From: Acidobacteriota bacterium
GTDB lineage: Bacteria > Acidobacteriota > UBA6911
DNA: 64,000 nucleotides
Direction: 5' to 3'
Assembly (NCBI GenBank): GCA_016929335.1
Contig: JAFGIY010000200.1
Coordinates: forward strand, 1-64,000
A model generated the notes under the pieces. The model ran no database searches, had not been told where the DNA came from, and saw only the letters and a list, made by a program, of their open reading frames with translations. The position numbers were made by a program, and so were the translations under genes. Shown in pieces: positions 46,627 through 60,667 of the stretch (position 1 is its first letter; each line of letters begins with the position of its first letter).

Positions 46627-47062
46627 CTGAACGCCCTGCATATTTTTCAGCTTCAGCCGGGTCATATAACCCGGATTCATGGTTTATTTAACCGAATTTA
46701 GCGCAAAAAAGTCCTGGCCATTTGGCATGGTCCTGTCATTGACAGACAAGATGGATTTATAAATCGTTGATTAATAATTACTTATATTTTTGTTACCAGA
46801 ACTGCTCTTTTCTGGTAGAGCATGTGCATATAAAACATACTCGAAAGGTGAAATTCTTTACAGCTCTTACGCCTATTGGTTGTTAGCTCCTGCTCAGAAA
46901 GTCATTTTAGAGTGGAAATACTGAAGGGAGCCTATAAAGCTCCTGGAAATTCTTATCTCTTGACTCTAATTCAGGAAACTTAAGTACAAGTTGCGAAGCC
47001 CGGCGATCGAGGGATTCCGCAAGGACATTCCGGCGGATAGGGTCGGGTACCGGAGGCTCTTC
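46627..47062. promoter_or_regulatory. leader region of the Hdr-hydrogenase operon
   Basis: This region without a gene carries several palindromes. CCGGGT…ACCCGG (46,657-46,674) has a six-base loop. TACCAGAA (46,794-46,801) and TTCTGGTA (46,810-46,817) are exact inverted 8-mers eight bases apart, a good operator shape. A TATAAA (46,829-46,834) lies 12 bases further on without a good -35, which suits an activated promoter. The 46,740-46,800 part is AT-rich. No clear sigma-54 site is seen although a sigma-54 regulator gene lies at the end of the operon. Confidence 0.45.
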
Positions 47063-47644
47063 ATGAGTGAGGTACAGCAAACTGTAATCTATGAACAAGC
47101 CATGGATCTGAATTTCCTTGATGAGGTCTACCGAATACCTGGAGGGGAAAAAATCAAGGATTGCATTCAATGTGGAACTTGCAGCGGATCGTGCCCTGTG
47201 TCCTGGGCTATGGAAGAAACGCCGCGAAAAATCTTTGCCATGATCCGGGCAGGGATGCGAGATAAAGTGTTGGACAGCATCACGATTTGGACTTGCGCAT
47301 CCTGCTATCAATGTATGCATCGCTGTCCGCAGGAAATCAAAATCACAGACATCATGTACATGCTCAAAAGAATGGCCATCCGGGAAAACAGGCAGCGAAG
47401 CAAGAATGCAGCTGCTTTATCGAGGAACTTCTTCAACATTGTCAATAAAAAGGGGCGCAACCATGAGACTTCTCTGATGATGAAGGTTGTATTGGGCACG
47501 AAGCCCTTGGATGGGATAAATCTTGCACCGGTCGGATTGGGTTTGGTAATGCACAACCGTCTTCCCATGTTTGGGAAAAAGATTCGCGACATAGAAGGCC
47601 TTCGAAAAATTGTTGCCAAAGCCAAAGAATTGGGAGGTGAGTAA
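47063..47644 (+). CDS. hdrC: HdrC, heterodisulfide reductase iron-sulfur subunit
   Basis: A 193-residue ferredoxin-like subunit that passes electrons between HdrA and HdrB. Two [4Fe-4S] motifs are intact: Cys34, 37, 40, 44 and Cys78, 81, 84, 88. The ATG at 47,063 has GGAGG six bases upstream and is clearly better than the upstream frame extension to 46,991. The stop and the hdrB start overlap as TAATG. It opens the operon. Confidence 0.93.
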   Translation: MSEVQQTVIYEQAMDLNFLDEVYRIPGGEKIKDCIQCGTCSGSCPVSWAMEETPRKIFAMIRAGMRDKVLDSITIWTCASCYQCMHRCPQEIKITDIMYMLKRMAIRENRQRSKNAAALSRNFFNIVNKKGRNHETSLMMKVVLGTKPLDGINLAPVGLGLVMHNRLPMFGKKIRDIEGLRKIVAKAKELGGE

Positions 47645-48513
47645 TGTTGCGCTACGCTTATTACCCGGGATGTTCGCAGGAAGCGACTGGAAGGCCCTAT
47701 GAGGAATCCGTACAGGAAGTTGCCAAGGTTCTCGGAGTAGAACTGGTTGAACTGGAGGATTGGAATTGCTGCGGCGCCACTGCATACATGAGCATAAACG
47801 AGGTGCTCTCTTTCAGCTTGAGCGCGCGCAATTTATGCCAGGCAAAGAAGATAGGAGACACATTGGTGACCGCCTGCAGCGCCTGCTATACAAATCTGCG
47901 GAAAACGGAAACCTATCTGTCTGAATTCCCGGAGACTAAGAGCAAGGTCAATACAGCTCTAGCCGAGGCAGGCCTGAAATATGAAGGAGGCATAGTCACC
48001 AAGCACTTTCTGCAGACCGTTGTGCAAGACGTCGGACTCGATCATGTCAAATCCCTCGTCAAGCGCCCGCTCTCAGGACTGCGGGTAGCCCCATACTATG
48101 GCTGTCAAATAGCCCGGCCGTTCGGCATTGAAGACAGCGCCGATAATCCGGTTATGATGGACAAGCTCATTGAAGCAATCGGCGCGACTGCGACCTATTA
48201 TCCGATGAAAACCATGTGCTGCGGCGGATCCCTTATGGGGATCCAAAGGGATGTTGCGCTTCGTCTCTGCCGCAATCTCCTTCTCTGTGCCCGGCAATAT
48301 GAAGCGGATTGCATCGCGGTAACCTGCCCGCTATGCCAGATCAATTTGGATGCGTTTCAATCGTTGATCAACAAGAAATACGACACGAACTTCAATATTC
48401 CAATCATCTATTTCACCCAGTTGATGGGTGTTGCGTTCGGGCTGGATTCCAAGGGACTGGGACTCAACGATTGTATCGTCCCGGCAACACATGTCATGGC
48501 CAAATATGCATAA
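47644..48513 (+). CDS. hdrB: HdrB, heterodisulfide reductase catalytic subunit
   Basis: A 289-residue protein with two CCG domains (Cys10…Cys42-Cys43…CSAC in the first half; YYGC…MCCGGS…CPLC in the second), which in methanogen HdrB hold two non-cubane [4Fe-4S] clusters that reduce CoM-S-S-CoB. Bacteria of this type generally lack those coenzymes, so the physiological disulfide or other acceptor is unknown. Cysteine spacing is complete, so it should be active. Confidence 0.93.
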   Translation: MLRYAYYPGCSQEATGRPYEESVQEVAKVLGVELVELEDWNCCGATAYMSINEVLSFSLSARNLCQAKKIGDTLVTACSACYTNLRKTETYLSEFPETKSKVNTALAEAGLKYEGGIVTKHFLQTVVQDVGLDHVKSLVKRPLSGLRVAPYYGCQIARPFGIEDSADNPVMMDKLIEAIGATATYYPMKTMCCGGSLMGIQRDVALRLCRNLLLCARQYEADCIAVTCPLCQINLDAFQSLINKKYDTNFNIPIIYFTQLMGVAFGLDSKGLGLNDCIVPATHVMAKYA

Positions 48514-48522
48514 GGAGACGGC

Positions 48523-49407
48523 ATGAGTACCAAGATCGGCGTTTATGTGTGCCATTGCGGCACAAATATCTCCGGCAAAGTGAATGTCACGGAAGTAACC
48601 GAATTTGCCAAAAAGTTGCCCGGCGTCGCTATCGCCCGGGAATACAAATTCATGTGTTCGGATCCCGGCCAGATCCTTATCGAGGATGATATTAAGAATC
48701 TCGGCCTTGACCGTATCGTGGTGGCCTCCTGTTCTCCGCTGATGCACGAACCCACCTTCCGCGGAGCCTGCGAGAGGGCAAACGTCAACCGCTATTTATT
48801 CCAGATGGCCAACATCCGCGAGCACTGCTCCTGGGTTACGGTGGATCCGAATGCGGCGACTGAAAAGGCGAAGGCTCTGCTGGCGGGCGCGGTCGCAAAA
48901 GCAGGCACGCTGCAATCGCTGCCGCATAAAACCGTCCCCGTAAACCCGGCAACCCTGGTGGTGGGCGCAGGCATTGCTGGGATTCAGGCAGCTCTGGATA
49001 TCGCTGATTCAGGGCGCACAGTCTATCTGGTTGAAAAGCAGCCTTCCATCGGCGGCCATATGGCTCTGTTTGACAAGACCTTCCCAACGCTGGACTGCGC
49101 TGCATGCATTCTGACGCCCAAAATGGTGCAAGTCGGGAAGCATTCGAACATCAAGCTGATGACTTCCAGCGAAGTGGAGAAAGTTGAGGGATTCGTCGGG
49201 AACTTTCGCGTGAAGGTCCGCCATAACGCCACCTATGTTGATCACATAAAATGCACCGGCTGCGGGCTTTGCTGGGAATCCTGTCCGGCCCGAATGATCC
49301 CGGCTGCACGGGTTATACGCAAAGGTAAACTGGTTATAGGCCGCAGCAAGGAGGCAATGGAAGGCCTCGAGGGAGGCAACGGCTTTCACAAGAGTCTCAC
49401 TCAATAG
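48523..49407 (+). CDS. hdrA: HdrA N-terminal half (split HdrA)
   Basis: The protein matches HdrA from its start (KIGVYVCHCGTNISGKVNV), through the FAD motif VVGAGIAGIQAALDIA near residue 148 and the HdrA segment LDCAACILTPKM, to the first inserted ferredoxin (CTGCGLCWESCP). It stops at 294 residues, whereas HdrA is normally 650 or more. The C-terminal FAD half and last ferredoxins are missing here. They occur 6.6 kb downstream, fused to a HoxU-like module (56,008-57,765). The next gene begins directly after the stop, so this is an orderly split rather than a broken gene. The HdrA bifurcating flavin site would have to be built by both polypeptides. Confidence 0.88.
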   Translation: MSTKIGVYVCHCGTNISGKVNVTEVTEFAKKLPGVAIAREYKFMCSDPGQILIEDDIKNLGLDRIVVASCSPLMHEPTFRGACERANVNRYLFQMANIREHCSWVTVDPNAATEKAKALLAGAVAKAGTLQSLPHKTVPVNPATLVVGAGIAGIQAALDIADSGRTVYLVEKQPSIGGHMALFDKTFPTLDCAACILTPKMVQVGKHSNIKLMTSSEVEKVEGFVGNFRVKVRHNATYVDHIKCTGCGLCWESCPARMIPAARVIRKGKLVIGRSKEAMEGLEGGNGFHKSLTQ

Positions 49408-49785
49408 GTGAACGAGGAAATGTCCTGCTCAGCAGCTTTAAAAACGCTCACTCTTGCGGATATTCGGAATCTTCTGGACGCTGAAGTGCTCAGCGGCGGT
49501 GACCTCTCCATCCAGGTTGCGGCAATCGGAGCAGCGGATCTGCTGAGCGACGTGCTGGCTACCAGCAAAATGGGGACCCTTCTTCTCACGGGGCTTGTCA
49601 GTACGCAGGTAATCAGGACTGCAGTTGTAGCGGATTTATGCGGCGTCGTTTTTGTGCGAGGAAAGAAACCCGGGGATGAAATTCTCTTGCTGGCAAAAGA
49701 GTCGAAGATCCCGGTTCTCTGCACGCGACTCAAAATGTTCGAAGCAGCCGGTCGTCTTTATATGGCGATTTCAGAGAGCAGATAA
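49408..49785 (+). CDS. DRTGG-domain protein 1
   Basis: A 125-residue single DRTGG-like domain (LTLADIRNLLDAEVLSGGD…DLLSDVLATSKMGTLLLTGLVSTQ). Such proteins recur in clostridial and Thermotoga-type bifurcating hydrogenase operons, with unknown function, perhaps nucleotide sensing. The start is a GTG directly after the hdrA stop; an ATG at 49,420 is an alternative. The stop overlaps the next gene as TAATG. Confidence 0.75.
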   Translation: MNEEMSCSAALKTLTLADIRNLLDAEVLSGGDLSIQVAAIGAADLLSDVLATSKMGTLLLTGLVSTQVIRTAVVADLCGVVFVRGKKPGDEILLLAKESKIPVLCTRLKMFEAAGRLYMAISESR

Positions 49786-50219
49786 TGCCGGAGGAGTTTG
49801 AAAGTGTTTATTGCGTTTTGGGAAGGGATTACACCAATGCCGGGCGAATCTCCACTCAAATCAAAGACACTCTCAAGCGTGTTGGCATCAATCCTGCAGT
49901 GGTGCGCCGCATCGCCATTGTTTCCTATGAGGCGGAGATGAATCTGGTCATGTATGCCACGCAGGGAAAAATTCTGCTTAATGTCAGCAGCGAAGCAGTC
50001 ACGCTTCGCATTGAGGATGAAGGTCCGGGGATCCCGGATGTCAATCTAGCAATGCAGGAAGGGTGGTCCACTGCTACGGCGGAGATGAAGGAAATGGGAT
50101 TCGGCGCCGGGATGGGACTGCCCAATATCAAAAAAAATGCTGATGAATTCATCATCAGTTCGGAAGTAGGGCGAGGCACCAAACTTTACATACGGGTCAG
50201 GCAAACGCCACAGAGCTGA
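49785..50219 (+). CDS. RsbW-like GHKL ATPase in the hydrogenase operon
   Basis: A 144-residue HATPase_c_2 protein with N-box YEAEMNLVMYA, G1 DEGPGIPD and GMGLPNIKKNAD. Relatives occur beside DRTGG, PHP and HsfB-like genes in [FeFe] hydrogenase operons. No STAS partner is present, so the target might be the DRTGG protein, the hydrogenase-like protein that follows or an unlinked regulator. Confidence 0.8.
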   Translation: MPEEFESVYCVLGRDYTNAGRISTQIKDTLKRVGINPAVVRRIAIVSYEAEMNLVMYATQGKILLNVSSEAVTLRIEDEGPGIPDVNLAMQEGWSTATAEMKEMGFGAGMGLPNIKKNADEFIISSEVGRGTKLYIRVRQTPQS

Positions 50220-50221
50220 AA

Positions 50222-51550
50222 ATGGTTGCCCAGTATCACCACTCATTGCGTTTTGACATAGACCGGTGTGACGGATGCATGTCGTGCATGCGCGCCTGCC
50301 CGACCGCCGCTGTCCGCATTCGCAATGGGCACGCGGTGAAGCTCGCCGACCGATGCATTGATTGCGGTGAATGCATCCGGGTTTGCCCGCGAGCCGCTAT
50401 CGTTCCATTGACAGATCATATGGCGGATTTGTCGAAGTTCGAATGCAAAATAGCAATCCCTTCTCCAGCTCTATACGCGCAGTTCGACTCAGAAGTCTTT
50501 CCCGGCATGATCTTTTCGGCTCTGAAGCAGTGCGGCTTTGATGATGTCGAAAGCGTTTCTCCCGCATGCGACGCGGTTACCATTGCGACGGAGCTCTTTC
50601 TGAATGAATACCGGGGCCAGTACCCTCTGATCTCTTCTTTCTGCCCAACCGTTGTGCGCCTGTTGCAGGTCAAGTATCCGGAACTGGTCGACCAGCTCCT
50701 GCCGGTGCTCGCCCCGCGAGAAATCTCGGCGCGGAATGCAAAAATCCGCAAAGCCAGGGAAACCGGATTGAGTCCGGACCAAATTGGCGCGATATACATT
50801 ACTCCCTGCCCCTCCAAAATAGTCTCCATTCTCGAGCATCCCGGCATGCAGCAGTCAAATCTGGACGCCGCGGTTTCAATTTGTGACCTTTTTCAAATTC
50901 TGGCGGCAGCGGTTTCTCGAGTTCAGGAAACGGAGTACAAGATCGATGCAGTGGAATCGGCATCCGGTCTCGATTGGTCTTTTATGGGAAGATCTCCCCG
51001 ATCCTTGCCTGCGGAAGACACTCTTTCGGTAGCAGGACTGCCGAATGTGATGCGGATATTGGACGACATCGAAAAGGGTCGCCTCCGCAAGTATCGCTAC
51101 ATCGAATGCCATGCATGTCCCGAAGGCTGCGTCGGCGGCTGCCTCACCGTCGAAAATCCCTATCTCGCAAGAGGCAAAGCAATCAAGCTCCAGCAAAATC
51201 TTCCGGCAGGATGCATGGTGGATCGGCGTGAAGTCGAGATTTCCTATCGCAGGAAAGAATACTTAATGGATGATTACCTCACCGGCAGGCCGCTCCGGCC
51301 GCTGGATGATGACATCTCCAGAGCTATTCTGAAAATGAAGGAGCGGGACAGAGTGCTTGCAGAGCTGCCCCGCATCGATTGCGGCGCCTGCGGCGCCCCC
51401 TCCTGTCGCGCGTTTGCCGAAGATGTGGTGCTCGGCGATGCGGATAAGGAATTGTGCGTTTTCTACTGGCGCAGAGAGCTGGCAACCCGGATTGAGCAGC
51501 TCGCCAGCCTCGTCAAAACACAAAACCAAGCCATCGGAGGACAACCATGA
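50222..51550 (+). CDS. degenerate [FeFe]-hydrogenase-like (HsfB-type) iron-sulfur protein
   Basis: A 442-residue protein: two [4Fe-4S] ferredoxin motifs (Cys16-19-22-26, Cys45-48-51-55), then an [FeFe]-hydrogenase H-cluster-like domain, then a four-Cys FeS domain (Cys387, 390, 395, 412). The four cysteines matching the H-cluster ligands are kept (Cys141 in SSFCP, Cys196 in ITPCPSK, Cys299 and Cys303 in HACPEGC). The proton-relay Cys of catalytic enzymes is Phe140 here. A sensory or electron-transfer role is more likely than H2 turnover. No catalytic [FeFe] HydA is in the operon. Confidence 0.8.
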   Translation: MVAQYHHSLRFDIDRCDGCMSCMRACPTAAVRIRNGHAVKLADRCIDCGECIRVCPRAAIVPLTDHMADLSKFECKIAIPSPALYAQFDSEVFPGMIFSALKQCGFDDVESVSPACDAVTIATELFLNEYRGQYPLISSFCPTVVRLLQVKYPELVDQLLPVLAPREISARNAKIRKARETGLSPDQIGAIYITPCPSKIVSILEHPGMQQSNLDAAVSICDLFQILAAAVSRVQETEYKIDAVESASGLDWSFMGRSPRSLPAEDTLSVAGLPNVMRILDDIEKGRLRKYRYIECHACPEGCVGGCLTVENPYLARGKAIKLQQNLPAGCMVDRREVEISYRRKEYLMDDYLTGRPLRPLDDDISRAILKMKERDRVLAELPRIDCGACGAPSCRAFAEDVVLGDADKELCVFYWRRELATRIEQLASLVKTQNQAIGGQP

Positions 51551-51897
51551 ACGTCGCCGAGGCAGCAAAGAAGATCGAAGGCATCCTGATGGCCGCACGT
51601 TCCTCCGTGGAACGAGAGATCCAGGGCGGCTATGCATCGGACCTCCTCTCGGATGTAATGGGTAACAGCCGGGAGGGAGATATCTGGGTCACCATGCAGA
51701 AGCATGTAAACGTCGTAGCCGTCGCCCAGCTCAATAACCTGGCGGCCATTGTGCTAGTCAACGGCCGCACTCCCGAATCGGATACGGCGGTCAGGGCGGA
51801 AGAAATCGGGATCCCGATTATTTCAACTCCGCTGCAGGCTTTTGATGTCATCGGGATTCTCTATAGCTTGGGCATTCGGGGGAGGAGGACAGTCTGA
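51547..51897 (+). CDS. DRTGG-domain protein 2
   Basis: A 116-residue relative of the first DRTGG protein (ASDLLSDVMGNSREGDIWVTMQKHVNVVAVAQL). Its start overlaps the previous stop (ATGA). The pair flanks the HsfB-like and ATPase genes; in related operons the same four families travel together. Confidence 0.72.
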   Translation: MNVAEAAKKIEGILMAARSSVEREIQGGYASDLLSDVMGNSREGDIWVTMQKHVNVVAVAQLNNLAAIVLVNGRTPESDTAVRAEEIGIPIISTPLQAFDVIGILYSLGIRGRRTV

Positions 51898-51899
51898 AA

Positions 51900-53180
51900 G
51901 TGTTTATGATCGACACGCACATCCACACATGTCTTTCACCCTGCGCCGAGCTGGATATGCATCCTTCCGCCTTGGTCGATGCGGCGGTGCGGGCGGGGCT
52001 GGACGCGATTGCCGTGTGCGACCATAACTCAGTCGAGAATGCGGCCGCCGTTCAGCGGGCTGGAGACACAGCCGGACTTGCCGTCATTCCCGGGATGGAA
52101 ATTACCAGCGCAGAAGAAGTCCATATCCTGGGATTGCTGCCCGATCTGACCGCTGCCATGGAGCTTCAGGCAAAGGTATACCGGGCATTGCCCGGACGTA
52201 ATGACGAGAAGGCTTTTGGGATGCAGGTGGTAGCCAACGAATTTGCAGAGGTCCTGGGTTTCAACGAGCATCTGCTCTCGGGAGCTACGACGCTGAATGT
52301 GGAAAAAGTTGTCGCCGCCATTCATGAGGTCGACGGATTGGCGGTGGCTTCTCATGTGGACAGAGAAGGCTTTGGAATCATCGGTCAGCTGGGATTCATT
52401 CCTCCGGGGCTGCCGCTGGATGCCGTTGAAGTTTCCCAGCGGATGCCGCTTCCGGCGGCAAGGGCATCGTTTGCTCCGAAAGGAGAGTACTCGATTCTCT
52501 GCGCATCTGATGCGCATGAGCCCAAAGATATCGCAAGAGCTGCGACGTATGTGCTGATGCAGGAAGCTTCACTTGCAGAACTGCGCCGCGCATTGGCCGG
52601 TGAAGGCGGCAGGGCAATTCTGGGCGGAGGAAGGCCGATGGAAGATCTCTCACTGCACATCCTGGATATCGCGCAGAACAGCCTGGAAGCAGGCGCCAGC
52701 CTGATCGAAATCGAGATCATGGAGAGTCTGCAGGAAGATTTGCTGACCATACTCATTCATGACAACGGGCGAGGCATGGATCCCAAAACTCTTGCGAAAG
52801 CAACCGATCCCTTCTTCACGACACGTACGACGCGCCGCGTAGGGATGGGATTGCCTCTTCTGGCCGCGGCGACACGGGCAGCCGGCGGAACACTCGTCAT
52901 TGACACAGAGCCCGGCAAGGGCACCACCATCCGTGCCACATTTCAGCACCGGCATATTGATCGGGCTCCGCTCGGCGACATCGAAACGACGCTGATGGTC
53001 TTGCTGGCGGGACAGCAGGATAAGGACATCTCTTTCAAACACATACTGGAAGACCGAGTATTTGAGCTGGATTCGCGCGATTTCCGCGCGGCCGAAATTG
53101 ATCTGGCGTCGCCGGTTGGACTGGCGATCTTGCGGGAAGCAATAAGAAAGGGCGAGGCCGGATTGCAGGACCATATCTAA
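51900..53180 (+). CDS. PHP phosphoesterase domain fused to a GHKL ATPase domain
   Basis: Residues 1 to about 245 are a PHP metal-dependent phosphoesterase-like domain: IDTHIHTCLSPCAELDMHP, CDHNSVENA, HVDREGFG and CASDAHEP carry the metal-binding His/Asp residues. Residues from about 248 to 350 are a histidine-kinase-type ATPase with DIAQNSLEAGA, HDNGRGMD and RRVGMGLPLLAAA, followed by a short alpha/beta tail. In other hydrogenase operons I would expect these as two adjacent genes, so this looks like a fusion. Start GTG (or ATG at 51,906); GGGAGGAGG lies upstream. A small-molecule or phospho-signal role is inferred only. Confidence 0.8.
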   Translation: MFMIDTHIHTCLSPCAELDMHPSALVDAAVRAGLDAIAVCDHNSVENAAAVQRAGDTAGLAVIPGMEITSAEEVHILGLLPDLTAAMELQAKVYRALPGRNDEKAFGMQVVANEFAEVLGFNEHLLSGATTLNVEKVVAAIHEVDGLAVASHVDREGFGIIGQLGFIPPGLPLDAVEVSQRMPLPAARASFAPKGEYSILCASDAHEPKDIARAATYVLMQEASLAELRRALAGEGGRAILGGGRPMEDLSLHILDIAQNSLEAGASLIEIEIMESLQEDLLTILIHDNGRGMDPKTLAKATDPFFTTRTTRRVGMGLPLLAAATRAAGGTLVIDTEPGKGTTIRATFQHRHIDRAPLGDIETTLMVLLAGQQDKDISFKHILEDRVFELDSRDFRAAEIDLASPVGLAILREAIRKGEAGLQDHI

Positions 53181-53194
53181 AAGAAACCTGGAGT

Positions 53195-53240
53195 GCGGCA
53201 GTTCGCTGCCGCCTTCAAAGCGAAGGCAAGCTTGGCTTGC
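53195..53240 (+). other. two intercistronic RNA hairpins before nuoE, one with a UUCG loop
   Basis: GCGGCAG-TTCG-CTGCCGC (53,195-53,212) is a perfect 7-bp stem with the exceptionally stable UUCG tetraloop; its closing pair is G-C. A second stem, GCAAGC-TTG-GCTTGC (53,226-53,240), follows. No T run is present, so they suggest mRNA processing, protection or attenuation between the accessory and NuoE-hydrogenase blocks rather than full termination. Confidence 0.6.
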
Positions 53241-53272
53241 TTGCGCACTTCAAGGTTAGCGGGAGGAACCCT

Positions 53273-53779
53273 ATGGTTGATGTTTCAAGAGTAAATGAGA
53301 TCCTCGAACGGCACGGCTCAAGACGCGAGCGTATGATTGCCATACTGCTCGACTGTCAGGAGGAATTTTACTATCTGCCTCGAGAGGTGCTGGAGGCGGT
53401 GGCTGCCGGAGTCAAGATTCCGCTGACGTCCGTTCTTGCCATAGCAACGTTCTTCAAAGCGTTCAGCCTCAAACCGATCGGACGATATCCATTCCGCGTC
53501 TGCAACGGTACAGCCTGCAATATCCAGGGCGGGCCGTTGCTCGTGGATGCCCTGGAGCGCGAACTCAAAATCAAGAAGGGCGAAACCACAAAGGACGGCA
53601 TGTTTGGTTTGGATACGGTAAATTGCGTCGGATGCTGCGGTTTGGCGCCGGTCATCACAGTAGGACAGGACGTGCATGGAAAAGTGAAAATATCGTCCGT
53701 GCCCAAGGTGATCAAGCAATACCAGTCAAAAGCTCCGGCTGTGCCCAAGGAGGGAAAAGATGCCCCGACTGTCCATTGA
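53273..53779 (+). CDS. nuoE: NuoE-type [2Fe-2S] subunit
   Basis: Thioredoxin-fold subunit that accompanies NuoF in complex I and in HydABC/HndA hydrogenases. The [2Fe-2S] cysteines are in RVCNGTACNIQGG and NCVGCCGLAPV. The ATG at 53,273 has GGGAGG six bases upstream; the frame is open to 53,237 but without support. The product is 168 residues. It overlaps the next gene by 20 bases. Confidence 0.93.
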   Translation: MVDVSRVNEILERHGSRRERMIAILLDCQEEFYYLPREVLEAVAAGVKIPLTSVLAIATFFKAFSLKPIGRYPFRVCNGTACNIQGGPLLVDALERELKIKKGETTKDGMFGLDTVNCVGCCGLAPVITVGQDVHGKVKISSVPKVIKQYQSKAPAVPKEGKDAPTVH

Positions 53780-54143
53780 TGATTTGAAGAAGATACGTGA
53801 GGACGCAAAGCGCACACTGACGCTGCGGTCCGGTGAGGCGCGCGCCAAGATTACGGTGCATATGGGAACTTGTGGTATTTCGGCAGGCGCCAGAGAGATT
53901 ATGGGCGCACTGCTTAAGGAAATCGAAAACCTCAAAGTGACCGATGTCATCGTCACGACATCGGGCTGCGCCGGATTGTGCAGCCGGGAACCGATGGCAA
54001 CTGTTGAAATCGCAGGCCAGTCCCCCGTGAAGTATGTGGACCTGAAGCCTGAGGCGATTGTGAAAGTGCTCAAAGACCATGTTCTTGGGGGCAAAATTGT
54101 AACCGACTACGCGCTAGCAAGCGGGTGTGAAACTACCGGCTAA
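53760..54143 (+). CDS. thioredoxin-like [2Fe-2S] ferredoxin (HndB-like)
   Basis: A 127-residue protein with an N-terminal helix and a thioredoxin-like [2Fe-2S] domain (HMGTCGISAGAREI, then TTSGCAGLCSREP). It resembles HndB of NADP-reducing hydrogenases, and usually lies between nuoE- and nuoF-like genes as here. GGAGGG lies before the ATG. It probably passes electrons within the diaphorase part of the complex. Confidence 0.85.
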   Translation: MPRLSIDDLKKIREDAKRTLTLRSGEARAKITVHMGTCGISAGAREIMGALLKEIENLKVTDVIVTTSGCAGLCSREPMATVEIAGQSPVKYVDLKPEAIVKVLKDHVLGGKIVTDYALASGCETTG

Positions 54144-54169
54144 TCCGCCGGCTGGGAGGTATGAATATC

Positions 54170-56011
54170 ATGGCATTCCGCACAAATGTGTTGGTTTGCG
54201 CAGGAACCGGATGCGTATCCGGGAACTCTTTCGCAACGGCAACAGCTCTAGAGAACGAGATATTCAAGAAAGGTCTCGCCCAGGAGGTACAGGTAATCAG
54301 GACCGGCTGCCAGGGGTTCTGCGCTGAAGGCCCCATTGTGATCGTGCAGCCGGAAGGGATCTTTTACTGTGGTGTTCAAGCCAAGGATGTTCCTTTTCTG
54401 GTGGAGGAGCATCTCGTAAAAGGCAGACCCGTCAAGAAGCTGATGTACACGCCTCCGACAGAAAAAAGCCCGATTCCCGCCTTGAAGGAAATTCCCTTTT
54501 TCGCGAAACAGAAGCTGGTGGTCTTAAGAAACCGCGGCGTCATCGATCCGGAAAGGATAGACGATTACATCGCGGTCGACGGCTACACGGCGCTGGAAAA
54601 AGCTCTGTTCCAGATGACACCGGAACAGATCCTCTCCGAAATCAAAAGGTCCGGGCTGCGAGGCCGCGGAGGTGGAGGATTCCCTGCCGGCGTGAAATGG
54701 GAAACCTGCCGGCATGCGGCACAGCACCGGGAGGTTGAGCCCGTTCTCGTTTGTAACGCCGACGAAGGAGATCCGGGCGCATTCATGGACCGGAGTATCA
54801 TCGAAAGCGATCCGCACTCCGTTCTCGAAGGAATGACCATCGGCGCGCGTGCGATCGGATGCAAGGAAGGCTTCGTTTACATCCGGCATGAGTACCCCAT
54901 AGCCCGAGAACGCCTGTTGAAAGCAATCGATCAGGCGCGGGATTATGGACTTCTCGGCAAGAACATTCTGGGAAGCGGAATGGATTTTGATATCGAGATT
55001 GTTCAGGGCGCCGGAGCTTTTGTATGCGGAGAATCCACAGCGCTCATGGCATCCCTGGAAGGCAATGTAGGCGAACCGCGAGCCAAATATATTCATACCG
55101 TGGAGTACGGATACAAAAACCGGCCGACCAATCTCAACAATGTGGAGACCTGGGCAAATGTTCCGTTGATCATCAACCGCGGAGCGGTATGGTTCAATTC
55201 CATGGGTACCGGCGATGTTTCGGAAAATCCATGGAATGGAAGCAGTGGAACGAAGGTCTTTTCCATGGTCGGCAAAATCAACAACACGGGCCTGATCGAA
55301 GTTCCAATGGGCATTTCGCTGCGCGAGATCATCTTTGATATCGGCGGCGGCATTCCAAAAGGCCGAAAGTTCAAAGCGGTCCAGACCGGCGGGCCTTCCG
55401 GCGGTTGTCTGCCCGAATCCCATCTGGACATGCCGGTTGATTTCGACAGTTTGACCGAGGCGGGATCCATGATGGGTTCCGGGGGAATGATCGTTATGGA
55501 CGATCAGACCTGCATGGTGGACGTAGCCCGCTACTTCATCTCGTTCCTGACTGAGGAGTCATGCGGCAAATGCACACCATGCCGGGAAGGACTCCGGACA
55601 ATGCTGGAAATCCTTGAGAGAATTACGCAGGGGAAAGGGCTTCCCGGCGATTTGGAAAAGCTGCAGGAAATGGCCGAAGTCATGCAGGATTGCTGTCTGT
55701 GCGCCCTTGGCACCTCGGCGCCCAATCCTGTTCTTTCAACTCTCCATTATTTCAAGGATGAATACGACGCCCACATCAAGGAGCACCGCTGCCCGGGAGG
55801 AGTCTGCAAGGAATTGATCGAGTATGAGATTGACCCGGCGAAATGCGACGGCTGCCACGCCTGCGTCCGGGGTTGCTCGGTGCAGGCCATTTTGGGTGAA
55901 GTGAAGAAAACGCACATACTGGACAAAGCGAAATGCGTCAAGTGCGGAGCCTGTATCGAGGCATGCAAGCGCGACGCGATTCACAAGGTTCCCAGGAGCT
56001 ATGCCGCATGA
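54170..56011 (+). CDS. hydB: HydB/HndC-type NADH-binding flavoprotein
   Basis: A 613-residue NuoF-like subunit with additional domains. In order: a thioredoxin-like [2Fe-2S] domain (Cys10, 15, 47, 51), the FMN/NADH domain (RGRGGGGFPAGVKWE, NADEGDPGAFMDR, GAGAFVCGESTALM), the [4Fe-4S] site CGKCTPC with a downstream Cys, and two C-terminal [4Fe-4S] ferredoxin motifs (CDGCHACVRGC, CVKCGACIEAC). This is the layout of HydB of bifurcating hydrogenases. The ATG at 54,170 is ten bases after GGAGG; the ATG at 54,161 is only one base after it. It should couple NAD(H) to ferredoxin and the hydrogenase. Confidence 0.93.
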   Translation: MAFRTNVLVCAGTGCVSGNSFATATALENEIFKKGLAQEVQVIRTGCQGFCAEGPIVIVQPEGIFYCGVQAKDVPFLVEEHLVKGRPVKKLMYTPPTEKSPIPALKEIPFFAKQKLVVLRNRGVIDPERIDDYIAVDGYTALEKALFQMTPEQILSEIKRSGLRGRGGGGFPAGVKWETCRHAAQHREVEPVLVCNADEGDPGAFMDRSIIESDPHSVLEGMTIGARAIGCKEGFVYIRHEYPIARERLLKAIDQARDYGLLGKNILGSGMDFDIEIVQGAGAFVCGESTALMASLEGNVGEPRAKYIHTVEYGYKNRPTNLNNVETWANVPLIINRGAVWFNSMGTGDVSENPWNGSSGTKVFSMVGKINNTGLIEVPMGISLREIIFDIGGGIPKGRKFKAVQTGGPSGGCLPESHLDMPVDFDSLTEAGSMMGSGGMIVMDDQTCMVDVARYFISFLTEESCGKCTPCREGLRTMLEILERITQGKGLPGDLEKLQEMAEVMQDCCLCALGTSAPNPVLSTLHYFKDEYDAHIKEHRCPGGVCKELIEYEIDPAKCDGCHACVRGCSVQAILGEVKKTHILDKAKCVKCGACIEACKRDAIHKVPRSYAA

Positions 56012-57765
56012 AAACGATCAAAGTAAAAATCGATGGTATTGAAACCGAAGCCGAGGATCGCACGCCGATCCTCAATATTGCGCAGAAGCTTGGGATCAAG
56101 ATCCCGACTTTATGCCATCACCCGCTGCTGGAGCCTTACGGAGTATGCCGCATATGCACCGTCGAGGTGAGGTCGGGCAAACGCATCCGCATGGTTACGG
56201 CATGCAATTATCCTGCGACGAACGGGATCGAAGTCCTGACCAATTCGCCCCGCGTCCGGCGCGACCGGAAGCTGATCCTCGAATGGATGATGGCGCGGTG
56301 CGGGCACGTCAAGGTCATAGAGGACCTCGCGGCGGAATATGGGATTACGGAACCCCGGTTCGGCCGCGGCGACGACGATTGCATTCTGTGCGGATTGTGC
56401 GTACGGGTCTGCCAGGATGTTGTCGGCGCCAACGTTCTCGGATTTTTCAACCGCGGCGCGACGCGCGAGGTCTCAACCGCTTACGGCGAGACGTCGGACA
56501 AGTGCATTGCCTGCGGCGCCTGTGCCTATGTATGTCCGACCGGAGCGATCAAGATCGAAAACGATGAAGCCCTGGTGCGGGAGGCATTGCCGCTCGGCCC
56601 ACTGACCCCCATTCACGTCCCGTTCATGCAGGCAGTCCCCCACCAGCCCGTGATCGATCCGGAATCCTGCATTCATTTCAAGACCGGCGGCTGCAAGGTT
56701 TGCGAAAAGGTCTGCGAAGTCAAGGCTATCGATCATGCGCAGCAACCCGTGACCGAAACGATCGAGGTCGGCGCCGTCATCCTGGCAACCGGATTCAAAC
56801 AATTCGATGCCGAGAAATTGCCGGAGTACGGTTATGGGAAATATCCGAACGTCTTGTCCGGCCTGGAATTCGAAAAGATGAACAGCGCTTCAGGTCCGAC
56901 CGGAGGCCAGATTCAGCTGGCAAACGGCCAACCGCCGAAGAGTGTGGGCATCATCCACTGCGTCGGCAGCCGCGACGAACGCAACAACAAGTACTGTTCT
57001 CGTGTCTGCTGCATGTACGCTTTGAAGTTCGCTCACCTGATCAAAGAAAAGACCGGCGCGGATGTCTATAACTTCTACATCGACATGCGCTGTTTCGGAA
57101 AAGGCTACGAGGAATTCTATCATCGTCTGCTCGAAGAAGAAGTACGCTTCATCCGCGGTCGCGCCGCCTCGATATCCGATTTCCCGTTCAACGAAACGGA
57201 GGTCGGGAAGCTGATCGTCAGGGTTGAAGACACCTTGATTGGCCAGGTGCGGCGCGTGCCGCTAGACATGGTCATCCTGGCGACGGGCCTGGAACCTGTT
57301 GCGGATGCTACGGAGATTGCACGCACATTCAACATCAGCTGCGGCAACGGCTTCTTCACAGAACGGCATCCCAAGCTGGCTCCGGTGTCCACAGCCACGG
57401 ACGGCATCTTTGTTGCAGGAACATGTCAGGGGCCGAAAGATATTCCAGACACCGTCGCTCAGGCGGGAGCCGCGGCTTCGGCCGTGCAATCCCTCATATC
57501 CAGAGGAGAGATCGAGGTTGAGTCCGCTACAAGTGTCGTAGATGCGGAAAAGTGCTCCGGCTGCAGGATCTGCAACACTCTCTGTTCCCTGTCGGCTATC
57601 AGCTTCGACGAAGAGAAGGGAGTGACCGTCATCAACGACGTATTGTGCAAGGGATGCGGGACCTGTGCCGCGGCATGCCCGAGCGGCGCCATTACTGCGC
57701 GCCACTTCACCGATGAGCAGTTGTTCTCCGAAATAGAAGGAGTGCTGTATGACGTTCGAACCTAA
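56008..57765 (+). CDS. HoxU/NuoG-like ferredoxin module fused to the HdrA C-terminal half
   Basis: A 585-residue fusion. Residues 1-75 form a plant-type [2Fe-2S] domain (Cys36, 47, 50, 66), and 120-180 hold two [4Fe-4S] motifs (Cys125-128-131-135, Cys166-169-172-176); the His-Cys3 site of NuoG is absent. From about residue 205 the protein is the C-terminal half of HdrA: the CIHFKTGGCKVCEKVC motif, VGAVILATGF, the YCSRVCCMYALK segment, VILATGLEPVAD and GTCQGPKDIPDTVAQA. It ends with a two-cluster ferredoxin (CSGCRICNTLC, CKGCGTCAAAC). The start overlaps the hydB stop (ATGA). It should physically bridge the NADH module and the Hdr/Mvh module. Confidence 0.9.
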   Translation: MKTIKVKIDGIETEAEDRTPILNIAQKLGIKIPTLCHHPLLEPYGVCRICTVEVRSGKRIRMVTACNYPATNGIEVLTNSPRVRRDRKLILEWMMARCGHVKVIEDLAAEYGITEPRFGRGDDDCILCGLCVRVCQDVVGANVLGFFNRGATREVSTAYGETSDKCIACGACAYVCPTGAIKIENDEALVREALPLGPLTPIHVPFMQAVPHQPVIDPESCIHFKTGGCKVCEKVCEVKAIDHAQQPVTETIEVGAVILATGFKQFDAEKLPEYGYGKYPNVLSGLEFEKMNSASGPTGGQIQLANGQPPKSVGIIHCVGSRDERNNKYCSRVCCMYALKFAHLIKEKTGADVYNFYIDMRCFGKGYEEFYHRLLEEEVRFIRGRAASISDFPFNETEVGKLIVRVEDTLIGQVRRVPLDMVILATGLEPVADATEIARTFNISCGNGFFTERHPKLAPVSTATDGIFVAGTCQGPKDIPDTVAQAGAAASAVQSLISRGEIEVESATSVVDAEKCSGCRICNTLCSLSAISFDEEKGVTVINDVLCKGCGTCAAACPSGAITARHFTDEQLFSEIEGVLYDVRT

Positions 57766-58183
57766 AATTGTCGGAATTCTTTGTAACTGGTGTTCCTACA
57801 CCGGCGCGGACCTGGCCGGGACTTCGCGCATCAAGTATGCGCCCAACGTCAGAGTGGTACGGGTCATGTGCTCCGGAAGAGTGGATCCCACATTCATTCT
57901 GAAGGCATTTGCCGACGGCGCCGACGGAGTGCTGGTGGCAGGCTGCCATCCCGGCGACTGCCACTATATCGAAGGAAATTATAAAACTATTCGCCGGATG
58001 GCTTTGCTCAAGCGGATGCTTGCGGATTACGGCATCGAGCCGGAACGATTCCGTCTGGAATGGGTTTCTGCCGGGGAAGGCGATCGTTGGGCCCAGGTGG
58101 TCAATCAAATCACCGAAGATGTGCGGAAACTGGGGCCGACAAAAATCAAGCCGGCAGCCAGGAAAAGGTTTTCAGCGGCATAA
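57749..58183 (+). CDS. mvhD: MvhD, [2Fe-2S] electron-transfer subunit
   Basis: A 144-residue protein linking the Mvh hydrogenase to HdrA in methanogens. Family segments are GILCNWCSYTGADLAGTSR, VRVMCSGRVDP and GCHPGDCHYIEGN. Both residues that are selenocysteine in some relatives are ordinary Cys here. It overlaps the HdrA-fusion gene by 17 bases, and a GGAG site lies before the ATG. Confidence 0.93.
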   Translation: MTFEPKIVGILCNWCSYTGADLAGTSRIKYAPNVRVVRVMCSGRVDPTFILKAFADGADGVLVAGCHPGDCHYIEGNYKTIRRMALLKRMLADYGIEPERFRLEWVSAGEGDRWAQVVNQITEDVRKLGPTKIKPAARKRFSAA

Positions 58184-58235
58184 TTTATTCAAACAGATGG
58201 CATGAGATGCCGGAACTAAGAAAGCGGAGGCATGG

Positions 58236-59192
58236 ATGGCAAAACTAAAGCTGGCAGCATATTGGGCAGCTTCCTGCGGAGGATGCGATGTGGCGATCCT
58301 CGATGTGCATGAAAAAATTCTGGATCTCGCCGCAGCGGCGGATATTGTCTTTTGGCCTATTGCGATGGATTTCAAATACAGCGACGTGGAGGCAATGCCG
58401 GACGGCTACATTGATGTGACCCTGTTCAACGGAGCGATACGCACTTCGGAGAACGAGCATCTCGCTCATCTGTTGCGGGCAAAGTCGAAAACGCTGGTTG
58501 CTTTCGGATCCTGCGCGCATTTGGGCGGAATCCCGGGTCTGGCGAACCTGTTTACGAAAGAAGAAATCTTCAAACGCGTCTACCATGAAGTCCCATCCAT
58601 GGCGAACGTGGAAAAAACGGAGCCGCAGCCGAAATCCGCCGCTCCCGAAGGAGAACTGACAATCCCGGAGTTTTACAACACCGTCATGACCTTGGACCAG
58701 GTGGTGGATGTCGACTATTATGTGCCTGGATGTCCTCCACCTCCGAGGCAGATCTGGAGCGTCGTAGAGGCGATCGTCAGCGGCAAGCTCCCGCCCAAGG
58801 GCGCCGTGATAGGCGCTTCCGAAAAAACCCAGTGCGATGAATGCCCGCGCAAAAAGCAGGAAAAGAAAATCACCGGCTTCAAGCGGCTTGCAACCGCACA
58901 ACCCGATCCGGACATCTGCTTTCTGGAACAGGGTTTCCTATGCCTGGGTCCGGTTACCCGAGGCGGCTGCGATGCGCGCTGTATGACGTCCGGAGTCCCT
59001 TGCAGAGGCTGTTTTGGCCCCCCGGATGGCGTGCTGGACATGGGCGCCAAAGCCATATCGGCTATCGCATCCGTCATCGAGGCCAAAGAAGAGGCCGAAG
59101 TGCAACGTATAATCGACCAAATCCCAGATCCTCTTCGCAGCTTTAACCGGTTCGGGATTCCTGCATCACTCATTAAAAGGAAGGTGCTATGA
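58236..59192 (+). CDS. mvhG: MvhG, [NiFe] hydrogenase small subunit
   Basis: Iron-sulfur subunit that takes electrons from the [NiFe] site. The 318-residue product has the proximal-cluster start WAASCGGCDVAILDVH, FGSCAHLGGIPGLANL and VPGCPPPPRQIW. C-terminal cysteines for the medial and distal clusters follow (CLGPVTRGGCDARC, CRGCFGPP). There is no twin-arginine signal, so it is cytoplasmic, as in group 3c. GGAGG lies five bases before the ATG. Its stop overlaps mvhA (ATGA). Confidence 0.93.
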   Translation: MAKLKLAAYWAASCGGCDVAILDVHEKILDLAAAADIVFWPIAMDFKYSDVEAMPDGYIDVTLFNGAIRTSENEHLAHLLRAKSKTLVAFGSCAHLGGIPGLANLFTKEEIFKRVYHEVPSMANVEKTEPQPKSAAPEGELTIPEFYNTVMTLDQVVDVDYYVPGCPPPPRQIWSVVEAIVSGKLPPKGAVIGASEKTQCDECPRKKQEKKITGFKRLATAQPDPDICFLEQGFLCLGPVTRGGCDARCMTSGVPCRGCFGPPDGVLDMGAKAISAIASVIEAKEEAEVQRIIDQIPDPLRSFNRFGIPASLIKRKVL

Positions 59193-60667
59193 AACGCATT
59201 TCGATTGATCCTATAACAAGGCTTGAGGGGCATGGGAAAATTGACATTTTCCTCGCAGAGGACGGGAGCGTGGCAAACGCCTACTTCCAGGTGCCCGAAC
59301 TGCGTGGTTTCGAAAAGTTCGTCGAGGGGATGCCCATAGAGGAAGTTCCGCGCGTGGTTTCGCGGATCTGCGGCGTCTGACCGGCCAGCCATCACCTGGC
59401 CTCGGGTAAGGCCGCAGATGCAGTTTATAAAGTCGATCCGCCTCCGACAGCGAAGAAGCTCCGGGAAATGTATAACGCCGCCGCTTTTATCCATAGCCAT
59501 ATTGCCCACTTTTACGCCCTTGCCGCTCCGGACTTTGTTGTAGGACCGGACGCCGATCCCGCAAAACGCAACATCCTCGGGATCGTCGAAAAAGTGGGAG
59601 TTCCTATAGCAGGTGAGGTCTTAAAACACCGGGCTATTGCGCAGGACCTCCAGATAACTATTGGCGGCAGATCGACACATCCCGTTTGGACGCTTCCGGG
59701 AGGAGTCGCCAAAGGAATCACCGAGGAACAGCGAAAGGAAATAATAGAAAAGGCAAAATCCTGCGTAGAATTTTCGAAGTTCTCCTTAAAGCTTTTTGAG
59801 GACGTTGTTCTGAATAACAAGGCTTACCTTGACTTAGTCCTGTCGGATGTATACGAGATGGACAGCTATTGGATCGGTACCGTCGATTCTAAAAACTGTG
59901 TGAATTTCTACGATGGCGATGTCAGAGTCACGGATCAGAAAGCAAAGGAAGTCTTCCGGTATAAACCGCATGAATACCTGAACTATATCTCCGAGCGTGT
60001 TGAAAAATACAGCTACCTCAAGTTCCCTTTCCTGAAAAAGATCGGCTGGCAGGGATTTGTGGACGGTCCGTCATCGGGCGTCTATATGGCAACGCCGCTG
60101 TCCCGGCTGAATGCCGCGGACGGAATGGCAACCCCCTTAGCTCAGGAAGAATATGAAAAGATGTACAAGACCCTTGGAGGCAAACCGGTCAAGAAGCTTC
60201 TGGCAACCCATTGGGCCCGATTGATTGAATTACTGTATTCGGCTGAGAGGCTTTTGGAACTGGCTCAGGATCCGGAAGTGGCATCTCCCAATTTCCGAAC
60301 CGTGCCGACGGCTACGCCGGAGGAGGGCGTTGGAATCGTGGAGGCAATGCGCGGGATTCTCACGCATCATTATCAAACGGATAAAAACGGATTGGTAACC
60401 AAGGCCAATCTGATCGTCGGCACCACCAACAATAATGCTCCGATTTCGATCTCCATCAAGCGCGCCGCGCAAAAATTAATCCAGCCCGGCAAGGAAGTAG
60501 GACAGGGACTTCTGAACATGGTGGAAATGGCTTTCCGGCTTTACGATCCCTGCCTTTCATGCGCCACACATTCGCTCCCCGGCGAAATGCCGATGGTGAT
60601 CGAGGTGATAAACGCCAAAGGAGAAGTCGTTCACCGCGAGAGCCGTCTGGATGAGTACATTCCATGA
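59189..60667 (+). CDS. mvhA: MvhA, [NiFe] hydrogenase large subunit, predicted selenoprotein (Sec64)
   Basis: Catalytic subunit of a group 3c-type hydrogenase. Read through an in-frame TGA at 59,378-59,380, the gene gives 492 residues. The N-terminal nickel motif becomes RICGV-Sec-PASHH, with Cys61 and Sec64 where two Cys are usual. The C-terminal motif DPCLSCATH (Cys455, Cys458, His461) is intact and followed by a 31-residue extension of the kind removed by a maturation protease, whose gene is next. The frame, motif and homology continue unchanged on both sides of the TGA. A candidate SECIS hairpin follows. The alternative, a nonsense mutation (TGC to TGA), would leave a dead gene in an otherwise perfect operon. 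Both ends overlap neighbours as ATGA. Confidence 0.88.
59378..59413 (+). promoter_or_regulatory. selenocysteine UGA codon and candidate bacterial SECIS
   Basis: After the TGA (59,378-59,380), two alternative stems can form. GGCCAG…CTGGCC (59,383-59,400 region) has a 7-base loop. Alternatively, CTGGCC pairs with GGCCGCAG around the loop TCGGGTAA, whose G residues lie about 24-26 bases after the UGA. The second puts a G-containing apical loop within the range expected of bacterial SECIS elements. SelA, SelB and tRNA-Sec are not in the window. Confidence 0.65.

Follow-up and report, generated by a model that had tools for sequence, protein, structure and literature searches.

The locus described here raises the question of whether HdrA, the flavoprotein subunit of heterodisulfide reductase, can be encoded in two pieces separated by NADH dehydrogenase-type genes and still act as one protein. 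It is found in positions 1 to 64,000 of contig JAFGIY010000200.1 (hereafter the window, 64,000 nucleotides long), which comes from a draft metagenome assembly of an Acidobacteriota bacterium (GCA_016929335.1; contamination 6.3). An earlier note, made from the sequence alone, had proposed such a split, with the C-terminal half of HdrA fused to a ferredoxin module of the NuoG/HoxU type. Our answer, to which we assign a probability of roughly three in four, is that the locus encodes one cytoplasmic complex, in which BfuC-BfuB-BfuA (equivalent to NuoE-NuoF-NuoG) would be inserted in the HdrA subunit of an HdrABC-MvhADG enzyme, the two HdrA halves re-associating.

The cluster consists of 16 genes, all on the forward strand (47063-61164), which overlap or are separated by short gaps (the largest of 56 bp), in the order hdrC, hdrB, hdrA-N, DRTGG, HATPase, Fe_hyd_lg_C/FeS, DRTGG, PHP-HATPase, nuoE, a small 2Fe-2S protein, nuoF, nuoG::hdrA-C, mvhD, mvhG, mvhA and a maturation protease. 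All six subunit types of HdrABC-MvhADG (group 3c hydrogenase) are present in the hdrCBA-mvhDGA order of that system; the differences are that HdrA is in two pieces, that BfuABC is inserted, and that an L1 cysteine codon of MvhA is TGA.

Neither of two open reading frames, located exactly where the earlier note had placed them, encodes the complete flavin adenine dinucleotide (FAD) domain that HdrA otherwise carries on one polypeptide. HdrA-N (48523-49407, an ATG-TAG frame of 294 aa) comprises the N-terminal Fe-S domain, the first part of the FAD domain and cluster motif I of the inserted ferredoxin; its residues 4-256 match residues 5-258 of the HdrA structure 5odc_A (E-value 7e-95), and the longest match to an HdrA chain stops at 258. 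In the fusion protein (56008-57765, an ATG-TAA frame of 585 aa), residues 1 to ~190 match BfuA, HydA and NuoG chains, while residues ~196-582 match HdrA up to its end (9sfi_A, E-value 5e-118; 5odc_A, E-value 6e-112). The HdrA-C part (56593-57762) thus holds the remainder of the FAD domain, the central Cys cluster and the C-terminal ferredoxins. HMMER starts the HdrA match earlier, at residues 149-164, because the second ferredoxin motif of the preceding module aligns with the first motif of HdrA.

The common breakpoint proposed earlier stands, and it can be placed more narrowly, inside the inserted ferredoxin. HdrA-N retains motif I, CTGCGLCWESCP (C244/247/250/254; 49252-49284), as its last HdrA-homologous piece and continues with a new tail (49285-49404) that begins with P..RVIRKGK..I; HdrA-C restarts at about PIHVPFMQAVP, followed by motif II (C221/229/232/236; 56668-56715). 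We estimate that roughly 15-20 HdrA residues between the halves have been lost or changed. Unsplit HdrA proteins read CxxCxxCxxxCP, then ~15-25 residues, PFPQAVP or a similar string and the second Cys motif, whereas the split forms have the first motif and a new tail in HdrA-N and restart near xxxQAVP plus the second motif in HdrA-C. The start of the tail was seen by eye in most of 26 split proteins, with the exception of those fused to NuoE. Two of the latter (loci L017 and L170) retain more of the original join: in their N parts the first motif continues into NuoE within one open frame, and their C parts carry stretches such as EFEEGLTHRKPIYIPFAQAVP and EFNAQLGDRRPIHIPYAQAVP. By eye this looks like the seam left when nuoEFG entered hdrA; it is kept as a by-eye reading because the seam pattern fits 11 of the 26 unsplit HdrA sequences tested.

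A split gene in a draft metagenome assembly, and one with a contamination of 6.3, may be suspected of being an assembly or frameshift artefact, and the earlier note had named a frameshift in the N half as a possibility. We rule this out as having practically no chance of being true, because translation of 1 kb in the three forward frames, beginning shortly before the stop of the N half, revealed nothing like an HdrA-C motif, and because the split recurs in many genomes, the same arrangement being present in 26 other loci.

These loci were collected by scanning contigs with the fusion protein (match cut-off 1e-120; the best 80 of 337 confirmed loci were kept, and the genome counts given here are lower bounds). 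The search for the same fusion elsewhere, suggested in the earlier note, yielded 34 loci with NuoG::HdrA-C besides the window after removal of duplicates. Near-full-length matches occur in records of metagenome-assembled genomes (MAGs) under six phylum-level names (Acidobacteria/Holophagales/Thermoanaerobaculum/Bryobacteraceae, Aminicenantes, Neomarinimicrobiota, Planctomycetales, Coatesbacteria and Deltaproteobacteria), bearing in mind that the names of MAG records can be wrong. At least 20 of the 396 sampled genomes of the window's own phylum (its own genome included) have a match that begins no later than residue 4 and extends at least to residue 509; two more match with very long frames (G113, which holds the tandem variant described below, and G323). 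Such a match is found in at least 3 of 149 and at least 1 of 282 genomes of two other sampled phyla. A separate HdrA-N gene precedes the fusion, in the same orientation, in 26 of the 27 loci that have at least 6.5 kb of upstream sequence; the odd one out (L163) shows a run of N immediately before its fusion frame, and in the remaining 7 of the 34 loci the contig ends within 2.9 kb upstream. The recurrent order is hdrC-hdrB-hdrA-N-[..]-nuoE-(trx)-nuoF-nuoG::hdrA-C, and the small 2Fe-2S protein between NuoE and NuoF recurs across the split loci. Three loci (L017, L024, L170) encode HdrA-N fused to NuoE, so that the module is chimeric at both ends there. One of these (L170, G113:C169, 4353-12580) presents a second architecture, a tandem HdrA with the first FAD half joined to NuoE, then NuoF, NuoG::HdrA-C::HdrA and MvhD.

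As a control we used 65 further loci of the scan, chosen by similarity to the query and hence not a random HdrA sample, of which 64 yielded an unsplit HdrA frame. The order hdrC-hdrB-hdrA-mvhD-mvhG-mvhA is complete in 46 of the 64, and the other 18 contain parts of it; NuoF/NuoG on the same strand near HdrA was found in a single case (L080), and NuoF also in L088, outside the same-strand rule. Given this order in the unsplit loci, the split cluster can be read as the canonical hdrCBA-mvhDGA operon into whose hdrA gene nuoEFG (bfuCBA), and often the cassette described below too, have been placed. The scan loci also include HdrA frames of ~1140 aa with ~510 extra residues at the inserted ferredoxin (L021, L022, L071, L083, L143 (= L166), L167, L168); the insert is of the GltD type according to Pfam in L022, L021 and L143 are alike by sequence, and for the other four the only criterion was the length of the gap. 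Such frames adjoin a split cluster in L021, L022 and L143. L147 has short fragments of HdrA-N, NuoE, NuoF and HdrA-C (714-2049) upstream of an intact cluster, perhaps a decayed second copy.

Whether the two chains form one HdrA was assessed first from conserved residues. These were scored in split proteins, the N half in 26 rows and the C half in 32, with the equivalents of Cys197, E356 and K409, whose roles are taken from PMC9012536 and PMC12054007 (here and below, papers are cited for the parts available), mapped by hand from HdrA alignments. In the N half the GxGxxG motif (G148/150/153), the cysteines C10/12/45/70 of the N-terminal domain and C195 (Cys197) are kept in 26/26 rows and E171 in 25/26, the remaining row having D. 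In the C half E289 (E356), K340 (K409) and the central cluster C318/330/334/335 are kept in 32/32 rows, and the cysteines of the C-terminal ferredoxins in 30-31 of 32, the remainder being gaps and one S. The motif I cysteines are present in all 26 split and all 22 unsplit rows compared, and those of motif II in all 32 split rows. The two halves also diverge in concert: the evolutionary distances of HdrA-N and HdrA-C correlate with r 0.924 over 24 clusters, the highest value of 21 pairs, compared with 0.856 for HdrC-HdrB, 0.839 for NuoE-NuoF, 0.831 for NuoF-NuoG and 0.703 for NuoG-HdrA-C, which reside on one chain. The difference between the HdrA-N/HdrA-C and NuoG/HdrA-C coefficients on resampling of loci was 0.12-0.32, with 0 of 1000 values at or below zero, and the N-C correlation is 0.898 in unsplit HdrA (68 rows) and 0.926 in split HdrA (26 rows). 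Shared ancestry inflates all such correlations, hence the weight lies on the comparison between pairs. Taken as sequence evidence, this is a strong indirect indication that the two chains form one HdrA. The co-occurrence in 26 of 27 loci, the conserved residues in both chains and the co-variation together lend indirect support to the FAD site predicted earlier to be assembled in trans, and the fusion (34 loci and the window) with the three HdrA-N::NuoE fusions supports the predicted direct wiring of NADH dehydrogenase clusters into HdrA.

The same data bear on the idea that HdrA-N is a separate partner and that the HdrA-C part pairs with a full-length HdrA encoded elsewhere in the genome. The check for further hdrA genes recommended in the earlier note did find them in this genome, and in HdrA dimers a cluster ligand is shared between the copies (PMC9012536). 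The idea is improbable in view of HdrA-N being upstream in 26 of 27 loci and co-varying with HdrA-C at r 0.92, and the other HdrA proteins of the genome are only 31-55% identical to HdrA-N (matched stretches above 90 aa). These other genes include a Bam-like cluster (L152, G000:C60) with a double HdrA, MvhD and unfused NuoE, NuoF and NuoG; another large double HdrA (L153, G000:C218); and two unsplit HdrA genes with MvhDGA and a protease (L151, G000:C8, 2536-10715), the shorter of which (577 aa) may be without part of the inserted ferredoxin, judging by its match pattern.

The genes placed inside hdrA have the marks of a bifurcating NADH module. NuoF (54161-56011) finds its best structural match in 7t2r_B, the BfuB subunit of a bifurcating enzyme (E-value 5e-234), and the equivalents of the B2-cluster ligands of BfuB (C438/H525/C531/C536, including the diagnostic His) are kept in 30/30 NuoF sequences. 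At position 476, the fifth B2 position, 18 of the 30 have T, 5 have C and 7 another residue; according to PMC9304861, from which the B2-ligand rule is taken, Thr occurs there in about two-thirds of Bfu enzymes. The two CxxCxxCxxxC motifs of the window's NuoF correspond to the C-terminal 2[4Fe-4S] domain of BfuB; in homologues the pattern was matched twice, once or not at all, to some extent because their segments had been cut. NuoE (BfuC; 53237-53779, PF01257, E-value 5e-44) and a NuoG-type (BfuA) module accompany it in the window. The latter (56008-56574; Pfam Fer2_4 and Fer4, HydA chains among its structural matches) has the cysteine motifs of the one [2Fe-2S] and two [4Fe-4S] clusters proposed in the earlier note, and its fusion to HdrA-C stands; the assignment to the HoxU/NuoG type holds only loosely. 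The module has no His-Cys3 motif, its best solved match is BfuA of a tungsten aldehyde oxidoreductase (9mqx_A), and it fits the description of type 2 BfuA in PMC9304861, so it should rather be called BfuA-like. Because NuoF has the Bfu ligands, the bifurcation site formed by flavin mononucleotide and Fe-S clusters (FMN-FeS) and the FAD bifurcation site of HdrA are probably joined in this complex. A separate NuoF-like gene (1724-2989, 421 aa, by eye) is located in the window far upstream of the cluster.

A Bfu core of this kind allows for another interpretation, in which the halves assemble but the FAD no longer bifurcates, HdrA being retained as wiring between a NiFe-Bfu hydrogenase with FMN-FeS bifurcation and HdrBC. 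The marks of a bifurcating BfuB agree with it, and a Bfu core plus a NiFe hydrogenase suffices for the coupling of NADH, ferredoxin and H2 in NiFe-HydABCSL (PMC9304861). The equivalents of E356 and K409, key FAD residues in PMC12054007, are however kept in 32/32 split rows, and we regard loss of FAD bifurcation as unlikely.

The history of the split was addressed by trees of HdrA-N and HdrA-C (104 rows each), in both of which the split sequences are scattered over several places. The window and L135 adjoin the unsplit L023 (named Myxococcota) in both trees, with support of 94/80, and 89/97 after removal of six rows; L011, L013 and L016 are next to the unsplit L116, and L017 and L022 are with the HdrA proteins that have the GltD insert. 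The placement of L010, L024 and L146 differs between the trees. A single origin was tried in a one-clade test with 98 rows, of which 25 split (FUL_L125, L151, L160, L161, L162 and SPL_L024 were dropped); one clade is rejected for HdrA-C (p-AU 4e-58) and not for HdrA-N (p 0.35). In the NuoF tree, read by row placement only, the window groups with L009, L135, L010, L011, L013 and L016. Pairwise identities show the same discrepancy: the Hdr and Mvh parts of the window are closer to the unsplit L023 than to the split L010 (for example HdrB 64 vs 49% and MvhA 71 vs 51%, though HdrA-C only 67 vs 63%), and its NuoF and NuoG are 73-80% identical to those of the split L010 and L011. A repeated origin of the split is suggested at most, because these quick trees contain several long branches, and they would look alike had the Hdr parts been replaced around an old split or had re-fusion occurred. 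The borders of the module within hdrA appear to have served on more than one occasion, be it by repeated insertion, replacement of Hdr parts or re-fusion.

Several observations weigh against the proposed complex. The Hdr and Bfu parts have partly different histories, as separate enzymes might have. L164 encodes HdrA-N and NuoG::HdrA-C without NuoE and NuoF, which makes the NADH core dispensable there. Only 20 of the 34 loci contain MvhA, which indicates that the third partner varies, although some absences are due to contig ends; over 5.9-10 kb downstream, L013, L024 and L170 show MvhD with neither MvhG nor MvhA, and in L139, L142, L144 and L164 all three of MvhDGA are missing from 5.3-6.7 kb. 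DsrC, tried as a general disulfide partner, was rejected, being present in only 14 of 31 other split genomes. Finally, the AlphaFold models of the single halves do not show the HdrA arrangement: the predicted local distance difference test (pLDDT) scores are 76.7/72.7 and the predicted template modelling (pTM) scores 0.54/0.40, from shallow alignments (32 and 34 rows), and superposition by Foldseek on full-length HdrA chains gives root-mean-square deviations of 7-13.5 and 23-24 Å, though HdrA is the best match for both. The first 140 residues of the HdrA-N model have pLDDT of 81-98 (blocks of ten) and parts of its FAD half 45-61; in the fusion model the values are 81-95 for the first 130 residues and below 50 for residues 452-506 of the FAD domain. 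The low confidence of the conserved FAD segments (184-192; 452-506) would fit a missing partner, and equally a shallow alignment. On balance the models speak neither for nor against folding in trans.

Part of this evidence would suit two neighbouring separate enzymes, Bfu and Hdr-Mvh, joined by a fortuitous gene fusion: the NuoF phylogeny is unlike that of HdrA, L164 has no NuoE and NuoF, and several loci have no Mvh genes. A fortuitous fusion retained in 34 loci, with the other end of the module fused as well in three of them, is very improbable indeed, and we prefer the single complex with an HdrA assembled from two chains. Behind the split cluster of L143 lie a second hdrCB with an HdrA of the GltD-insert type and, further on, MvhDGA.

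The remaining genes of the cluster agree with the gene order given above. HdrC (47063-47644, 193 aa) is a 2[4Fe-4S] protein (Pfam Fer4_8/Fer4_17 on the longer frame 46991-47641), and HdrB (47644-48513, 289 aa) has two CCG domains (PF02754, two stretches). Between hdrA-N and nuoE lies a regulatory-looking cassette (49408-53180; Pfam and NCBIfam matches) encoding a DRTGG protein, an anti-sigma-type HATPase, a Fe_hyd_lg_C/FeS protein resembling [FeFe]-hydrogenase, a second DRTGG protein and a PHP+HATPase protein; it looks like a redox-sensing regulator, and a homologue of its first DRTGG protein, used as a marker, is present at the same place in 15 of the 34 split loci. The small thioredoxin-like [2Fe-2S] protein (53760-54143) has weak NCBIfam 2Fe-2S ferredoxin matches and no Pfam match. 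Downstream of the fusion are MvhD (57749-58183, PF02662, E-value 2e-56), the NiFe small subunit MvhG (58236-59192, PF01058), the large subunit MvhA (59189-60667, PF00374 on 59411-60664) and a hydrogenase maturation protease (60664-61164, PF01750).

The frame of MvhA is open except for one TGA (59378-59380) at the codon of the second L1 cysteine (RICGV-TGA-PASHH), the L2 motif DPCLSCATH being intact. Among 77 distinct motif-fitting MvhA-type sequences of the fetched loci this codon is TGC in 50, TGT in 21 and TGA in 6, and never TAA or TAG. The six TGA carriers are the window, G258 and G196 (same genus, 88% identical), G101 and L015 (split clusters), and G348 (39% identical). MvhA matches were found in 99 of the 396 genomes; of nine flagged with TGA, five have it at L1 and four (G264, G272, G336, G363) as terminal stop only. 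This genome has tRNA-Sec (anticodon TCA) and SelB, and the L1 TGA probably encodes selenocysteine, at an unusual position. In known [NiFeSe] enzymes selenocysteine is in the C-terminal region (PMC4730141), and a 2026 review (PMC13188914) lists MvhA with the motif UxxC, which we take to be the L2 position. With respect to a selenocysteine insertion sequence (SECIS), the minimum-free-energy fold of the window's stretch is not special (z 0.35). A hairpin with its loop starting 20-23 nt after the TGA was found in 5 of the 6 TGA sequences; it is only suggestive, because Cys homologues have hairpins of similar energy (means of -8.4 and -7.2 kcal/mol).

The layout is indeed not a standard one, as the earlier note held, but an NADH-type domain at the same ferredoxin has already been described within one chain. 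This nearest precedent is type III HdrA (PMC12054007), in which GltD is inserted at the inserted ferredoxin; a Bathyarchaeota cluster of this type includes mvhADG, and coupling of NADH, H2 and disulfide has been proposed for it. The likeness is that an NAD(P)H-reactive domain occupies the same site; the difference is that type III HdrA is one polypeptide with GltD, and here a three-subunit Bfu module accompanies an HdrA in two pieces. Neither chain of the window has a Fer4_20/GltD-type Pfam match, only a weak Pyr_redox_2 match as in the FAD domain itself. HdrL of Desulfobacterium autotrophicum is a predicted HdrA/glutamate-synthase fusion with an NADH site (PMC2702500); unlike for the window cluster, no NuoE/F/G module is mentioned in the available part of that paper, which does note that Hdr domains may be spread over two or more colinear genes.

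Bfu and HdrA modules occur in one complex, as here, in the Bam-Bfu class II benzoyl-CoA reductases, for which serial bifurcation has been proposed (PMC9304861). In these enzymes HdrA is a subunit distinct from BfuA and a tungstopterin forms the third site, whereas the window encodes fused BfuA::HdrA-C, and a Pfam scan of the 16 cluster proteins revealed no tungstopterin BamBC. NiFe-HydABCSL (NiFe-Bfu) of Acetomicrobium mobile (7t2r), whose BfuB is the closest to the NuoF of the window, shares BfuABC and a NiFe hydrogenase, has no Hdr module, and its BfuA has more clusters than that of the window (PMC9304861). Flx-type NADH subunits were also looked for; the 16 proteins include NuoE and NuoF and no other pyridine-nucleotide oxidoreductase family besides the FAD domain of HdrA. 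The Flx proteins of FlxABCD-HdrABC are not known to be of the NuoE/NuoF kind. That system resembles the present one in having an NADH module that feeds HdrABC; it is named in PMC10553843, and no split HdrA is mentioned in the material available. Many Bfu types are listed in the part of PMC9304861 available, none of them fused to Hdr, and we found no description of a NuoG/BfuA-HdrA fusion, or of HdrA split around NuoEFG, in the literature searched, as far as available. While the components themselves are known, those sources did not reveal the split, the double chimera or the covalent Bfu-HdrA wiring.

In the complex that we propose, the module enters at the ferredoxin that passes low-potential electrons to soluble ferredoxin in ordinary HdrA. 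HdrA-N and BfuA::HdrA-C would re-associate, complementing each other physically, into a single FAD domain and a single ferredoxin with two clusters. Sharing of ligands between the two motifs is usual in a 2[4Fe-4S] ferredoxin, and for this reason the clusters of the inserted ferredoxin would be ligated by both chains. Electrons from H2 at MvhA may pass through MvhG, MvhD and the C-terminal ferredoxin of HdrA to the FAD, whence a high-potential branch would lead via HdrC/HdrB to a disulfide/thiol, and a low-potential branch via the inserted ferredoxin and BfuA to the FMN of BfuBC. Because the inserted ferredoxin is fused to BfuA, the latter branch would enter the FMN-FeS centre of BfuBC, the place where Bfu enzymes process NAD(H) and ferredoxin (PMC9304861). 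In this organism four redox pairs (H2, NAD, ferredoxin and disulfide) would thereby meet at two bifurcation sites of different kinds arranged in series; in relatives that have no Mvh genes there would be another third partner or none. As to direction, H2 formation driven by NADH and ferredoxin with disulfide turnover, in a reversible manner, is a guess that we would not bet on at even odds. One contig of this genome (L119, L171; G000:C198) carries both DsrC and dsrA, pointing to sulfite/sulfate or sulfur metabolism, and DsrC is a possible partner of HdrB. We offer tentatively, as falling just short of an even chance, a broader picture. In it, NADH modules (either GltD or a complete bfuCBA operon) would have entered hdrA on several occasions, each time at the same ferredoxin loop, and where the operon entered, the protein was cut and rebuilt in trans; FMN-FeS and bifurcating FAD sites would be connected covalently and serially across H2, NAD, ferredoxin and disulfide, with 4Fe-4S ligands contributed by two polypeptides.

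Electron bifurcation is the basis of energy conservation in many anaerobes, and how two mechanistically different bifurcation sites are coupled is open for the Bam-type complexes that have both modules (PMC9304861). At the present locus the wiring appears to be written into the gene, by fusion of the NADH module to the low-potential exit of HdrA, and annotation that expects a one-chain HdrA would probably misname both halves. If our reading is true, the cluster would provide a compact, expressible system for testing serial bifurcation; a bifurcating flavin domain could be assembled from two chains, and the inserted ferredoxin of HdrA would be a plug-in site for new electron partners.

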